From: Opitutales bacterium
Lineage (GTDB): Bacteria; Verrucomicrobiota; Verrucomicrobiia; Opitutales; Oceanipulchritudinaceae
Reading direction: 5' to 3'
Assembly: GCA_020831585.1 (NCBI GenBank)
Contig: JAFIGE010000030.1
Coordinates: 1-40,406, forward strand
DNA: 40,406 bases
The position numbers were made by a program, and so were the translations under genes. The notes beneath the pieces were generated by a model. The model saw only the letters and a program-made list of their open reading frames with translations, had not been told where the DNA came from and searched no databases. Of the stretch, positions 1 to 18,186 are shown piece after piece (within the stretch, counting starts at the first letter, position 1; the number at the start of each line of letters is the position of its first letter).

Positions 1-3000
1 CCACCGGCAGATCCGCCAGGGGAATCGGCTCAAAAACCGCCTCCACCGTCGTGTCTCCCGACAGGTCCAGCGAGATCAGCGGCTCGGTCGAATAGAAGTC
101 CGGCTCGCCTTCCGACAGCGAAGCCAACCCATTCGTCGGCGAAACCACCCACCCGACAAAGCGGTGGCCGGGTTCGGGCAGGGCTTCCAGTTCGATGGGC
201 ACACCCTGGAAATAGGTGCCGGTCCAGGGGTAGGGGTAGCCCTGCACACCCAGCAAATCTGAATCAATGACCAGCGTGTTCAGCCGAATTTTCCCAGATT
301 CCATAGAGGCAGCAAGAGTGATCTCAACATCCATACCCAAAGAAAAACGGCCTCTCAGTTCTTCTCGTTGCGAAGCCGGCCTACTGCGACCAAAGTTAAT
401 GATCTGATTTACCGAAGAAAAGGGTGCAATATTCTGCGACCAGCGGTGCTCGTCTTCATGCACATATGGAGAGATTTCGTCATAGACACCTCGAACAATC
501 TCCTCAATTCGATGAGGCGTAAATGTAGAATTTATATGGTCTAGAAAACGGTTCACAAATTGCCTTCGAAAACCGGCATTTTGAAACAAAGCTTCGTAGA
601 TTTCTTCGGAAGGCCTTAATTTTCGATCTACCATCCAGTTAAACCCTGCACTGCTTCTCATAATTTGATCGAAGTCCTGCGTGTATATACGCCACCGCCC
701 ATCACCAAAGCTTTTATCTACAGGCGTTTTCACTCTCCAAAACCCATGCTCAAAATGTGGGCTTTGGAGATAGCTATTCATAATAATAAAATTCGAAAAG
801 CTATCCAAGCACAGCGATTGCCTCACCACTTCAAAAATGGAATCTTCCTTCATTTCGTTCTCAAGAATAAATTCAACGAGTTCGGAGAACAAAGCCGCAC
901 CAATCACTCCACCGTCCTCAATGCGATCCCGAAACGTGACGACCAAGTCGTCGGTATCCAAGCCGTAATTCAAAGCCAAATGATGCCTGTCAAAGCGATC
1001 ACGAATATTCGTAATTCCCCAATATTCGCCATTTATGAAAGATATTGCAGGACGACTCCTCAAAATCCCCTCGTAAACCGGCTGCATGAGCCGATGGGCA
1101 AAAGGATCCTGAATGTAATCCCTTTGCGCGCCCCGCCTGCGCAGGAGGATTCGCTTGAAGCTCTCACTTGCAGAAACCAAGCCATGAAGGTACTGATCAC
1201 CCAGAAAACGGTAGTCCATCACACTGGCATTATCGTATTCGCCACGAGCATACAACCGAAGGCTCTTGGCACGGAGATTTCGACTCGTATTTCCATGGAT
1301 GCGAACTCCGACTCGTTGGTTTAAAAGAGCATGAGGGACGCCGTCTTCAAACACTTCAACAAAAGCGGTCCTTTCCCACTCATCTCCACGGCCACGAAAG
1401 TTACCGTTTTTGAACCACCAGGCAACGTCTGCTTCAGGATTCGCCAAACGCCACTCGTCCATCCGCAAGCCTGCAGTATAGATACCCGTGTAATAATCAA
1501 ACAGGTCGTCTTTCTGAATCTGCTTCGAAATCACTGGGAGCGTATAGGGATTTCCTTCCTCAAAAACAAAGTAACTGTTCGCTGCCGACCTTGAAGAAAG
1601 CCACCCTTCCTTATAGGCTCGGGCCTGAACAGAGAATCCCTTACGGACCGGAGTTTCAGGAGCGTAATGCGGAAAAGCATCCGTCGTACTGGAGATTTGC
1701 GTCAAAAGATCCGGTTCGCCGCTGCGATCCTGAATCGTCAAAGGCTCAGTGTAAAGATGGCTTATGTAGGAACTTGTCAGGAAAGGACCGAACGGATCGG
1801 TGGGCTTTTCAGGATATTCATTTTTGTAGAGAAACGTCGTCCCCAAAAGATTGTCGATCGCTGGCTCCGACCCATCCAGGGAGTAGACAATTGCCACCTC
1901 CGGTTCGGGATGGGAAAGGACCAGATCAAAGCCCTCTTCATAAAATCCGCCCACATGCGAAAACGTCGGTGGATCGAGAATCCCGAGGTAGGCAGTCGTG
2001 ACGTTCGTTCCACCCGGGGTGGGCTCGTCAAAGAAGAACCAGGCATCCCCTTCACCCTCGACCCGACCGATGGAGATGTCGCGCGGCAGCGCGGTCGGCG
2101 CGAGTTCGTCCACGAGCGTGCCGTCGGGCATGGTCAATAAAACCTCCTCGCCGGAAGCGGAGAGGGCATAGTTGGTGTGCCAATGCCCAAAGGCAGCACG
2201 GCGCCCTTCGAAGATATCGGATAGCGCCTCAGCCGATAGGGCGTAGTCAAAGAACAAAACATCAGCCAAGCTGCCCTCCATCCCTGCCCAGCCGCTCGCC
2301 CCGCTTTTACCGCCTATTCTATCCAATCGCAAAACTCCATTCCAATCACCTTCGCCAACAGCTTTTCCATTCAGGAAAACAGCTACTCTATTCTCGCTTC
2401 TACGGAAGACAACATGCTCCCATGAGCCGACTTCCAAGTGAGTTGAAAGGTCTACAACAACGTAAGGATTCATCAAAACAATTCGATTAGATCTCCAGTG
2501 ACCAATGCCAAAACCATTCGACAGGTTGACCGCCCGCCAATCAGTTGCTCTCAGAGACTTGACCCAATAGGAGACCGTAAAGTCTCCTGCCGTCTCGAAC
2601 GGATGGTCCAAAGTCACAAACCCTGTTGGGAGAAAATGAAGAACTTGCTCGAAGCCATTCTCTGCGACGAAAGTTACTTCTCCGTTAATCGTACCGTGAT
2701 TTTCTGAAACCGAACGATCCAAGACGTGAGGAGGTGTCTGATCCCCCTGAAACAGCCAGGCCCCTTGTGCCTCATCAATAAACGGCTGAAACCAGGATCG
2801 ATCATAGGCAATCACCCGATTCTTCCCCGAGGCCCAGACGAGCAGGTACTCCCCCGCCCCGATGCTCGTGCCCCCGGGAAAAGTCCACTTGAAGGGGTTG
2901 TTGTAGCTGTCCGAGAGCCCCCAGCCACTCAGGTCGACGGGATCGGTGCCGTAGTTGTAAAGTTCGATCCAGTCCTCGAAGTCGCCGTCTTCATCGGCGA

Positions 3001-3142
3001 TCGTCGTGCCGTTGGAGGCCATAACCTCGTTGATGCGCACGGTGGGGGTGAGGCTATAGGCTGTAGGCTGTAGGCTGTAGGCGAGGAGCAGGCCGAACAG
3101 GACCGGAAGGCGCAGGGCGAAGGTGAGAGGGTGGTATTTCAT
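1..3142 (-). CDS. Secreted lamin-tail / LamG / CotH-kinase family protein (C-terminus beyond window)
   Basis: The minus frame is open from an ATG at 3142 to the window edge, about 1047 codons without the stop. A hydrophobic N-terminus (residues 1-30) looks like a Sec signal peptide. A lamin-tail domain follows (about 33-108, with INEVMASN, DWIELYN, DLSGWGLSD), then a LamG/concanavalin-like region (about 148-318), a chitobiase-like segment (about 415, VYSLDGSEP), and a CotH-kinase-like domain (about 610-830, VGVRIHGNTSRN, ILLRRRGAQRDYIQD, DFDQIMRSS). Near residue 970 is a segment like the divergent InlB B-repeat (GHRFVGWV). In this family CotH domains are protein kinases or structural surface modules. 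The substrate here is unknown, and an extracellular or surface location is inferred. The middle of the gene (about 300-1800) is visibly richer in A+T than its ends. No SD precedes the ATG; it was chosen because the signal peptide follows directly. Confidence 0.85.
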   Translation of the reverse strand, partial: MKYHPLTFALRLPVLFGLLLAYSLQPTAYSLTPTVRINEVMASNGTTIADEDGDFEDWIELYNYGTDPVDLSGWGLSDSYNNPFKWTFPGGTSIGAGEYLLVWASGKNRVIAYDRSWFQPFIDEAQGAWLFQGDQTPPHVLDRSVSENHGTINGEVTFVAENGFEQVLHFLPTGFVTLDHPFETAGDFTVSYWVKSLRATDWRAVNLSNGFGIGHWRSNRIVLMNPYVVVDLSTHLEVGSWEHVVFRRSENRVAVFLNGKAVGEGDWNGVLRLDRIGGKSGASGWAGMEGSLADVLFFDYALSAEALSDIFEGRRAAFGHWHTNYALSASGEEVLLTMPDGTLVDELAPTALPRDISIGRVEGEGDAWFFFDEPTPGGTNVTTAYLGILDPPTFSHVGGFYEEGFDLVLSHPEPEVAIVYSLDGSEPAIDNLLGTTFLYKNEYPEKPTDPFGPFLTSSYISHLYTEPLTIQDRSGEPDLLTQISSTTDAFPHYAPETPVRKGFSVQARAYKEGWLSSRSAANSYFVFEEGNPYTLPVISKQIQKDDLFDYYTGIYTAGLRMDEWRLANPEADVAWWFKNGNFRGRGDEWERTAFVEVFEDGVPHALLNQRVGVRIHGNTSRNLRAKSLRLYARGEYDNASVMDYRFLGDQYLHGLVSASESFKRILLRRRGAQRDYIQDPFAHRLMQPVYEGILRSRPAISFINGEYWGITNIRDRFDRHHLALNYGLDTDDLVVTFRDRIEDGGVIGAALFSELVEFILENEMKEDSIFEVVRQSLCLDSFSNFIIMNSYLQSPHFEHGFWRVKTPVDKSFGDGRWRIYTQDFDQIMRSSAGFNWMVDRKLRPSEEIYEALFQNAGFRRQFVNRFLDHINSTFTPHRIEEIVRGVYDEISPYVHEDEHRWSQNIAPFSSVNQIINFGRSRPASQREELRGRFSLGMDVEITLAASMESGKIRLNTLVIDSDLLGVQGYPYPWTGTYFQGVPIELEALPEPGHRFVGWVVSPTNGLASLSEGEPDFYSTEPLISLDLSGDTTVEAVFEPIPLADLPV
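3052..3079 (-). repeat. Heptamer tandem repeat in the signal-peptide coding region
   Basis: On plus there are three exact copies of GGCTGTA (3059-3079) preceded by one variant, GGCTATA (3052-3058). They lie about 20 codons into the CotH-type gene and encode part of its signal peptide (around AYSLQPTAYSL). A seven-base unit changes the reading frame when one copy is gained or lost. Confidence 0.85.
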
Positions 3143-3147
3143 AGGAT

Positions 3148-3171
3148 GGCGGAGGGCGGAGGGCGGAGGGC
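3148..3171 (-). repeat. Second heptamer tandem repeat, in the 5' leader
   Basis: Three exact copies of GGCGGAG (plus strand, 3148-3168) are followed by GGC. They lie just upstream of the ATG of the CotH-type gene, in the stretch where a ribosome binding site would be expected. Confidence 0.8.
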
Positions 3172-3199
3172 CGTTTTCGAGCAGGAAGCTTCGTTGCGA

Positions 3200-3240
3200 T
3201 TGTCACAAATACGTTAACCCATGAAAATTTTCGGTGACAA
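3200..3240 (-). promoter_or_regulatory. Candidate promoter of the CotH-type gene, bracketed by an inverted repeat
   Basis: Read on minus: -35 TTGTCA (3240-3235), an 18-base spacer, then -10 TAACGT (3216-3211). A perfect 7-base inverted repeat, TTGTCAC (3200-3206) and GTGACAA (3234-3240), brackets the promoter with 27 bases between arms. The remaining sequence to the neighbouring exonuclease gene shows nothing else I can name. Confidence 0.4.
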
Positions 3241-3335
3241 GCGCAATCGAGACGTGGGCTGGCGGTGCCCCGGGATGAGGCATGAGCCTCGTTTCCTCTG
3301 CGGAGGGCGTTGGCGGGGGGGCGCGGCCTTTCCCT

Positions 3336-15396: not shown

Positions 15397-18186
15397 ATGG
15401 CCGAAGGATTCAAGGACACCCTGCACCTCCCCCAAACGGATTTTCCGATGCGGGGCAATCTCCCCGCGCGCGAACCCGAGCTGTTCGCCCAGTGGGACCA
15501 GACCGGCCTCTACGAACGCATTATTGAGCGCCGCGCGAGCGCCCCCGCCTTCATCCTCCACGACGGCCCGCCCTACGCCAACGGCAACATCCATATGGGC
15601 CACACCTTGAATAAGGTGCTGAAGGACATTGTCGTGCGCTACAAGTCCATGCGCGGCCACCGCGCCCCCTACGTGCCCGGTTGGGACTGCCACGGCCTGC
15701 CCATCGAACAACAGGTTCTCAAAAAAGTGGGCGATAAAATCCACGACATGGCCCCCGGCGAGCTGCGCAACCTCTGTCAGGACTATGCCCAGGCGTGGAT
15801 CGGCATCCAGCGCGACCAGTTCAAGCGCCTCGGCATCCTCGGCGACTGGAACCGTCCCTACACTACCCTGCAGCCCACCTACGAAGCGGGCATTCTCAAT
15901 GTGCTCGCCGCGCTCACGAGCAAAGGGCTCATTCGCAAGGGCTTCAAAACGGTGCACTGGGACCCCGTCTTCCGAACCGCCCTCGCCGAGGCGGAGATCG
16001 AATATCACGAGCACGCGTCGCCCTCGATCTACGTGGCCATGCCCGTCCTCGATGCTCAAAAGCACGCCTGCCTCGCCGGGTTGAGCAACCCCGCTTTTGT
16101 CATCTGGACAACCACCCCCTGGACGATGCCAGCAAATCTCGGCATCAGCCTCAACCCGGAGTTGCCCTACGTGGCCCTCGCCGCGCCGGACGGTCGCCAC
16201 TTCATCGTCGCGGAAGGCCTCGCGGAGCGCTTCCAGCAGGCCTGCGACCTCGGCGAGCTGCCCGTGGCCGCCCACCTCCAAGCCGCCGACCTGGAACGTG
16301 CGGAGGCCGCCCATCCTTTCTTCAGCGATGTGCGCAGCCTCGTCATGCTCGGCGACCACGTAACTCTTGAACAGGGCACGGGCTGCGTCCACACCGCCCC
16401 CGGGCACGGCGCTGATGACTTTATCATCGGCAAAGCCTACGGTCTCCCGGTCTTCTGCCCGGTCGATGCCAAAGGTTGTTACACGGACGAGTTCCCCGAA
16501 ATGGCGGGCGAATTTGTCTTCAAAGCCAACCCGAAGATCGTCGAGCGCCTGCGCGAAAAGGGCCTCCTCCTCGCCCACAAGCAAGTGCGCCACGAATACC
16601 CCTTCAGCTGGCGGAGCAAGCACCCCATCATCTTCCGCGCCACCGAACAGTGGTTTATGGAACTGGCCGATGGCGGTGTGCGCGAACGCGCCCTCGAAGC
16701 CATCGACGAGGCCGTGCAATGGATTCCCCACTGGGGCCGCGAGCGCATCCGCAGCATGGTCGAGCGTCGCCCTGAGTGGTGCCTCAGCCGCCAGCGGCAC
16801 TGGGGCGTGCCCATCCCGGCCATCCGCTCCAAGGCCACCGGCAAATCCTGCCTCGATGCCCGCATTATCGAACGCTTCATCGGGCGCGTGCGCGAACGCG
16901 GCACCAATGCCTGGTATGACGAGCCGCTCGAAAGCTTCCTCCCGCCCGACTTCGTTCACCCCGAGACCGGCGAAACCGGAGCCGACGCCTTCGAGAAGGA
17001 GTTTGATATTCTCGATGTGTGGTTTGACTCCGGAGCCAGTCACGTCGCCGTGCTCGAACAGGATGAGCGCCTCCACTCCCCCGCCGATCTCTACCTCGAA
17101 GGAAGCGACCAGCACCGCGGATGGTTCCAGAGCGCCCTCCTCCTCGGCATCGGCGCACGCGACAAAGCCCCCTTCAAGACCGTCCTCACGCACGGTTTCG
17201 TCCTCGACGGCGAAGGCAAGGCCATGTCGAAATCCGTCGGCAACGTCATTTCACCCCTCGACCTGATCGGCAAATACGGCGCGGATATCCTCCGCCTCTG
17301 GGTGGCGAGTACGGACTACCGCAACGACATCGGTATCTCCGATGAGATCGTGCGCACCACCGCCGATGCCTACCGCACCGTGCGCAACTCCCTCCGCTTC
17401 CAACTCGGCAATCTCTACGATTTCCACCCGGCGGAGCACGCCATTCCCCACGCCGACCTCAACCCCCTCGATCAGTGGGCTCTGGGTCAACTCGCCGCCC
17501 TCACCAAGGAGGTCACGGAGGCCTTCGAAGCCTACGAGTTTCACCGCGTCTACCATCTGCTCAACCGTTACTTTACAGTCACCCTCTCCGCGCGCTACCA
17601 CGACTTCATCAAGGACCGCCTTTACACAACGCGCGCGGATGGCCAGGAGCGCCGCTCCGCCCAGACGGTCCTCCACCACCACGCGCAGATCCTGCTGCGC
17701 CTCCTCGCTCCCTTCCTCACCTTCACGGCCGATGAAGCTTGGGCGCATCTGCCAGCGGATCCCGCCCGCGCCGCCTCCGTTCACGAAAGCGATTGGCCGG
17801 AGATCCCCGCCGAATGGGTGAACTCGCCCACCACCGCTGAGGTTGAGCGCCTCTTCGAGATGCGCGAGCGCGTGAACGAACGCCTCGAAGCCATCCGTAC
17901 GGAAAAAATCATCGGCAAATCCATCGATGCCGCCGTCACTTTCACGGGAAATCCAGGGGATGAGCTCTTCGCCACGCTGACACGCCACGAGCGCATCCTG
18001 CCCGAGTTGTTCATCGTCTCCACGGTAACTTTGAACGCCGACCCGGCCGCCGAGTCTCTTTCCCTTCATGCCGAACACGCCCCCGGGGTGCGCTGCCCGC
18101 GCTGCTGGCGCTGGGTGCCCGCCCTCGTCGAGACGGCCCACGGTGCCGTTTGCGACCGCTGCGCGGACGCCCTCACGACGGCGTGA
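15397..18186 (+). CDS. ileS: Isoleucyl-tRNA synthetase
   Basis: 929 residues, normal for the bacterial enzyme. Charges tRNA-Ile in the cytoplasm and edits misactivated valine. Class I signatures: NIHMGH (64-69, the HIGH box) and KAMSKS (about 607-612, the KMSKS box). The connective-peptide editing domain contains WTTTPWTMPANLG. The C-terminal zinc-binding region is intact, with CPRC (about 899) and CDRC (about 918). ATG 15397 is the only start that keeps the family's N-terminal DFPMRGNLPAREP in place. It is followed by dksA and lspA, an arrangement related to the ileS-lspA operon of E. coli. Upstream there is a 6-bp hairpin CTTGCC/GGCAAG near 15330-15344 and no T-box. Confidence 0.97.
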   Translation: MAEGFKDTLHLPQTDFPMRGNLPAREPELFAQWDQTGLYERIIERRASAPAFILHDGPPYANGNIHMGHTLNKVLKDIVVRYKSMRGHRAPYVPGWDCHGLPIEQQVLKKVGDKIHDMAPGELRNLCQDYAQAWIGIQRDQFKRLGILGDWNRPYTTLQPTYEAGILNVLAALTSKGLIRKGFKTVHWDPVFRTALAEAEIEYHEHASPSIYVAMPVLDAQKHACLAGLSNPAFVIWTTTPWTMPANLGISLNPELPYVALAAPDGRHFIVAEGLAERFQQACDLGELPVAAHLQAADLERAEAAHPFFSDVRSLVMLGDHVTLEQGTGCVHTAPGHGADDFIIGKAYGLPVFCPVDAKGCYTDEFPEMAGEFVFKANPKIVERLREKGLLLAHKQVRHEYPFSWRSKHPIIFRATEQWFMELADGGVRERALEAIDEAVQWIPHWGRERIRSMVERRPEWCLSRQRHWGVPIPAIRSKATGKSCLDARIIERFIGRVRERGTNAWYDEPLESFLPPDFVHPETGETGADAFEKEFDILDVWFDSGASHVAVLEQDERLHSPADLYLEGSDQHRGWFQSALLLGIGARDKAPFKTVLTHGFVLDGEGKAMSKSVGNVISPLDLIGKYGADILRLWVASTDYRNDIGISDEIVRTTADAYRTVRNSLRFQLGNLYDFHPAEHAIPHADLNPLDQWALGQLAALTKEVTEAFEAYEFHRVYHLLNRYFTVTLSARYHDFIKDRLYTTRADGQERRSAQTVLHHHAQILLRLLAPFLTFTADEAWAHLPADPARAASVHESDWPEIPAEWVNSPTTAEVERLFEMRERVNERLEAIRTEKIIGKSIDAAVTFTGNPGDELFATLTRHERILPELFIVSTVTLNADPAAESLSLHAEHAPGVRCPRCWRWVPALVETAHGAVCDRCADALTTA

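Follow-up and report, generated by a model that had tools for sequence, protein, structure and literature searches.

Many bacteria carry heptamer repeats, for which, to our knowledge, no cause has been given. Passages of PMC4692102 describe the heptanucleotide STRR of Calothrix, GGGAATC of Xanthomonas and GGGGA(C/T)T of Nostoc, and count 70 cases of inverted heptamer pairs in X. campestris; in a term search, the text of that paper contained neither S23 nor IVP. An action of heptamers on expression has been proposed for Xanthomonas and Nostoc in the same passages and for Beggiatoaceae in parts of PMC4679880. The window analysed here, a stretch of 40,406 nucleotides that makes up the entire contig C179 of its genome (G000, hereafter the home genome; 5.28 Mb in 262 contigs), carries arrays of two heptamers, GGCTGTA and GGCGGAG, at the start of a surface-protein gene. 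Like the STRR-type heptamers of the passages cited (PMC4692102), the arrays of the home genome are dispersed, consist of few units, have their G-rich strand antisense close 5' of ORFs and include some inverted pairs; unlike them, they are built from many different units. The TAACTGA direct repeats of Beggiatoaceae, in the parts of PMC4679880 that describe them, likewise lie directly 5' of start codons and sometimes within ORFs near their ends, but one fixed unit is used there and many are used here.

The hmw genes of H. influenzae also come to mind, as there too a unit of seven bases lies close to where a gene for a surface protein begins; the hmw promoters, however, have 13-38 units that vary among strains in the section of PMC2651432 cited here, whereas the window arrays have about four. 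In Coxiella, according to passages of PMC4990558, intervening sequences of the 23S rRNA hold an S23-family ORF between complementary ends capable of forming a stem. This last comparison applies to the S23 loci described below and not to the window arrays; those loci share the ORF and the complementary ends, but lie between protein genes in an ABC-permease operon and on annotated plasmids, and have arms of tandem heptamers with a locus-specific unit. Passages of PMC3936711 and PMC10053308 mention IVP genes in two settings, within cas loci (the former paper) and in the neighbourhood of retroelement Avd proteins.

Two heptamer arrays at a surface-protein gene

The initial annotation had placed two different heptamer arrays at the start of the gene, GGCTGTA in the signal-peptide codons and GGCGGAG in the leader. 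Both are real, as judged by Tandem Repeats Finder, translation and Pfam, and their positions hold with the minus-strand ATG at 3142 (Table 1). Period 7 was returned for each, with 4.6 copies and 96% matches for the coding array and 4.0 copies and 95% matches for the leader array. The peptide encoded by the GGCTGTA array in this minus-strand gene contains LLAYSLQPTAYSLTPT (cyclic peptide AYSLQPT). The signal-peptide region scored 22 at period 7 versus 3-4 at periods 5, 6, 8 and 9, and as this score was equalled in 0/300 Markov shuffles the array exceeds chance at the locus. With about four units each, one unit being a variant, the arrays are not of the long, pure, slippage-prone kind. The leader array lies close 5' of the ORF with its G-rich strand antisense, as STRR-like repeats do, and no Shine-Dalgarno-like sequence was seen at it by eye.

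Table 1. Location of the window features and of the S23/IVP loci discussed in the text.
Feature	Location	Strand	Remarks
GGCTGTA tandem array (coding strand CAGCCTA)	3051..3082	+	about 4.6 units; signal-peptide codons
GGCGGAG tandem array (coding strand CTCCGCC)	3144..3171	+	4 units; leader; ends directly before ATG
Surface-protein gene	1..3142	-	signal peptide, LTD, Laminin_G_3, CotH (translation, Pfam); incomplete, cut by contig start
Upstream region common to window gene and paralog G000:C177	3172..3247	-	alignment
S23/IVP gene with inverted GGCTGTA-type arms, ABC-permease operon	L017 (G000:C14) 1832-3314; L194 (G002:C49) 16306-17737		two genera
cas-adjoining S23 loci with inverted heptamer arms	L422, L426, L427		plasmids of Pseudanabaena, Picosynechococcus, Anabaena
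S23 gene between two ribonucleotide-reductase subunit genes	L423 (Nostoc edaphicum plasmid pNe_5)		arms TAGGGAG and CTCCCTA

The home genome has a paralog of this gene on contig C177. The upstream region common to the two genes may be promoter-like, and genes for an exonuclease (RNase_T) and a DUF294/CBS protein lie upstream of the window gene. Despite 26 substitutions in 284 aligned surrounding bases, the coding array of the paralog has the same number of units as that of the window. Its leader is 6 rather than 7 bases shorter, and its leader array is degenerate, one unit shorter and altered by an extra change. We compared 21 LTD genes (a 22nd region, L158, was left out for want of a match) and found a period-7 array in the signal peptide of three, namely the window gene, the paralog and the closest homolog, G002:C158; the other 18 lack one, with a single borderline case. 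In the closest homolog the signal-peptide position is occupied by a different unit, TTTCCGC. There (L147, 1-220) an octamer array, GTCCGACA, CTCCGCC-like units and the TTTCCGC heptamers succeed one another 5' of the LTD domain.

The statement that gain or loss of a seven-base unit shifts the frame was confirmed. With one unit fewer in the coding array the ORF stops after 68 residues, and with one more it stops after 31; changes by one or two units lead to frameshift and truncation, and a change by three keeps the frame. A switch is therefore mechanically possible.

Distribution of the units in the genome and its relatives

Two consecutive copies of GGCTGTA (GGCTGTAGGCTGTA) occur at five places in the home genome (C14, C46, C177, C179 and C201) and two of GGCGGAG (GGCGGAGGGCGGAG) at four (C49, C102, C179 and C189), versus no matches in that genome for the reversed-pattern controls of both. 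Units related to GGCTGTA are also present on C209, and many further units occur. The same heptamer thus stands in tandem at several unrelated loci, and the alternative raised in the initial annotation, that of dispersed genome repeats, gained support. The accompanying notion that such heptamers would be scattered without pattern proved wrong: several arrays directly precede start codons and are pyrimidine-rich on the coding strand, and S23 genes are flanked by inverted pairs. The pyrimidine-rich arrays directly 5' of recognisable genes number eight, these cases having been picked by eye rather than counted exhaustively. Within coding sequence, a heptamer mosaic of about 150 bases, its unit changing along the block, lies in frame in an ABC-transporter ATPase gene on C102 (L024, 347-500), and genome G138 has one E1-E2 ATPase gene with two in-frame arrays that share their heptamer unit (L458, 17650-18418); heptamer arrays therefore do enter coding sequence. 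On C31 (L263, 584-4515) heptamer and octamer arrays of many kinds are clustered together with two S23 genes, and the gene adjoining this cluster appeared by eye to be polysaccharide-deacetylase-like.

A 345-kb sample, which took in contigs chosen for holding GGCTGTA or GGCGGAG units, contained 12 perfect period-7 runs versus 0 expected, and 0-1 for periods 4, 5, 8, 10 and 11. Given that this sample was repeat-selected, and that 35 stretches unselected for repeats (496 kb) yielded four period-7 arrays, with periods 3, 9 and 12 at least as frequent, genome-wide dominance of period 7 was rejected. The arrays are real, dispersed and clustered, and a strong genome-wide excess is absent.

With regard to relatives, the exact GGCTGTA pattern was present in 3 of 55 genomes (the home genome, G002 and G029), the search having covered the home genome and 54 relatives, none of its own genus; control matches likewise fell in three genomes. 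We therefore rejected the possibility that the unit is common across the order, as outside the home genome and G002 it occurs at the level of the reversed control. When three mismatches were allowed, the GCCTACA 21-mer was found in two of five genomes and the CTCCGCC 21-mer in all five. Since control matches occur too and exact 21-mers are few, many of the CTCCGCC matches are probably due to chance; exact CTCCGCC matches of 21 bases are limited to G000, G001 and G002.

S23/IVP genes between inverted arms

On contig C14 the GGCTGTA arrays flank an ORF assigned by Pfam to PF05635 (S23/IVP); we take the ORF present in intervening sequences of 23S rRNA to belong to this family. One arm is GGCTGTA and the other its inverse; S23 arms on C31 are of the CCTCCG type. 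A search of eight genomes gave 25 PF05635 matches, nearly all of the strong ones with adjacent short tandem arrays. We scored the complementarity of the 250 bases left of each S23 gene to the 250 bases right of it, with a cut-off score of at least 14. Inverted arms were found: (i) at 16 of 19 family loci in the eight genomes, versus 7/1000 random intervals of the home genome and 13/342 cross-locus pairings of left and right flanks, the remaining six of the 25 matches being weak ones that were left out, one of which exceeded the cut-off; (ii) at 22 of 29 phylum-wide loci versus 20/812 cross-locus pairings, a thirtieth (L282) already being in the family set; (iii) at 20 of 30 loci in 21 further genomes, versus 14/870 cross pairings and 0/600 shuffled flanks, these records spanning Bacteroidetes, Cloacimonadota, Fibrobacter, Phycisphaerales and others and including cultured Polaribacter, Alkalitalea and Rhodohalobacter; and (iv) at 9 of 14 plasmid loci (cyanobacteria, Azospirillum) versus 10/182 cross pairings, the 14 having been chosen from 27 records among the matches listed. 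In total, 67/92 S23 loci have inverted arms, versus 57/2206 cross-locus pairings, and the loci without them (3/19, 7/29, 10/30 and 5/14) are counted in the totals. PIN genes in the same eight genomes served as controls and had inverted arms at 0/30 (Fisher p = 1e-13 against the 67/92 S23 loci, a value in which independence is overstated as some loci are related). An S23 ORF between complementary ends, as in an intervening sequence, is thus seen at 67/92 loci.

The arms have recurrent features. The 5' arm has a best period of 7 in 28/39 cases and of 8 in 7/39, and S23 flanks overall peak at 7, 14 and 21, whereas PIN flanks have no peak. The unit varies between loci, and the two arms within one locus match each other. 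Purine-first polarity was seen in 33/39 arms and was weaker in other phyla (13/20). The cassette at G002:C49 folds with its arms as a long stem (z = -2.71, 0/100 shuffles as stable). At C31:16844 and C204 a direct-orientation match outscores the inverted one, at C74 the two score equally, and G006:C9 is dominated by larger direct repeats. The S23 gene at this last locus (L285) sits amid hexamer arrays, which on either side are themselves part of longer repeats (about 165 bases).

Filled and empty versions of one site could be compared in an operon where two adjacent ABC-permease genes (BPD_transp_1), presumably cysT and cysW, lie side by side in 12 of 37 genomes searched. The gap between them measures 22-166 bases in ten genomes, 578 in G002 and 649 in the home genome. 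In the latter two the stop of one permease gene and the start of the other are separated by an S23 cassette that is antisense to both genes, and by eye no arrays were present in the ten short gaps, including that of G013, which is of the same genus as G002. As 2/12 sites have S23 and arms and 10/12 have neither, S23 and arms arrived, or left, together. The ATPase gene that follows the permeases has arrays before its start codon in 2/11 genomes, again the home genome and G002. On plasmids, S23 genes with inverted arms lie between cas6 and cas4 in two cases and between cas10 and a cmr3-family gene in one. The S23 loci in the permease operon and on annotated plasmids are between protein genes and not inside a 23S rRNA gene.

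It is quite possible, and we tentatively suggest, that free-standing S23/IVP genes are widespread insertion cassettes, cousins of the rRNA intervening sequences, whose ends are inverted arrays, mostly of a seven-base unit peculiar to each copy, with the arms staying complementary while the unit drifts. Under this proposal, cassette arms, in place or stray, would account for part of the heptamer repeats described earlier in cyanobacteria, Xanthomonas and elsewhere, and the arrays of the window would count as stray members of that population. In open-access PMC we found no literature joining S23 genes with tandem arms, which is no proof of novelty.

Origin and meaning of the window arrays

We consider it probable that the window arrays are members of a population of short heptamers (and some octamers) dispersed in this lineage and sited where they are tolerated. 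Our reasoning for this is that the units recur at unrelated loci, that the closest homolog has a different unit and that cassette arms share the units. Tolerated sites would be found before start codons and in flexible protein stretches, signal-peptide ends for example. As unpaired members of the population, the window arrays would for the most part be neutral to the gene, which they would have reached by copying or turnover and not through selection for switching; a coding unit lost or gained would then be an ordinary frameshift mutation. Some points speak against this explanation: a conserved position with a changed unit in the closest homolog could mean that an array is useful there, GGCTGTA outside the home genome and G002 is no commoner than its reversed control, and many of the CTCCGCC matches with three mismatches are probably due to chance.

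The window units match the arms of two S23 cassettes in the home genome, those at C14 and C31. On the strength of shared units and placement, the window arrays are likely stray members of the same repeat population, and it is only possible that they are the remnant of a cassette. That they are solo arms, either left over from S23-type cassettes or a seed for them, strikes us as unlikely. The identity of units fits this, as do arrays, ORF-less or unpaired, of the operon that holds the C14 cassette, but the window itself has no S23 match or remnant, hence no S23 ORF within about 250 bases of the arrays, and no inverted partner array (none at score 12, no exact 12-base inverse), so that both an S23 remnant and a partner were rejected. 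G138 also counts against solo arms, as it has no PF05635 match yet carries five period-7 arrays in 140 kb; S23 is therefore not needed for heptamer arrays. Array density was not higher in the sampled S23-bearing genomes, with two in 400 kb in three of these versus five in 400 kb in four S23-free genomes, all five in G138, and the idea that S23 makes the arrays is accordingly unsupported.

A cis-regulatory role, in which the leader array would act on transcription or translation, by analogy for example as an antisense G-quadruplex or a pyrimidine-rich site for ribosome protein S1, is in our judgement quite unlikely. The placement of the leader array suits such a role: it ends directly before the ATG, with the G-rich strand antisense and at most 50 bases 5' of the ORF as in passages of PMC4692102, and TAACTGA repeats likewise stand directly 5' of start codons in parts of PMC4679880. 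The leader array of the paralog, however, has degenerated and lost a unit, with a further change, and nowhere in the GGCTGTA array do three G stand in a row. The initial annotation saw in the two arrays the layout of a contingency (phase-variation) locus, where slippage of the coding heptamer would toggle the surface protein by frameshift and the leader heptamer would tune translation. We regard this as most improbable, and the claim found no support. The product is a surface-type protein by Pfam, the frame responds to unit number in the required way, and heptamers take part in hmw phase variation in H. influenzae according to the cited section of PMC2651432; but there are only about four units, including a variant, versus 13-38 copies in the hmw heptamers listed in that section, the diverged paralog has an identical coding unit number, and other loci carry arrays of these units without any tie to a switch.

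The window arrays caution against taking short heptamers at gene starts for a switch. We know of no function for S23/IVP proteins. The close association of inverted heptamer arms with S23 genes joins this puzzle to that of the heptamer repeats and renders both testable. It may also bear on the IVP genes noted in cas loci in passages of PMC3936711, which S23 genes with inverted arms beside cas genes may account for.
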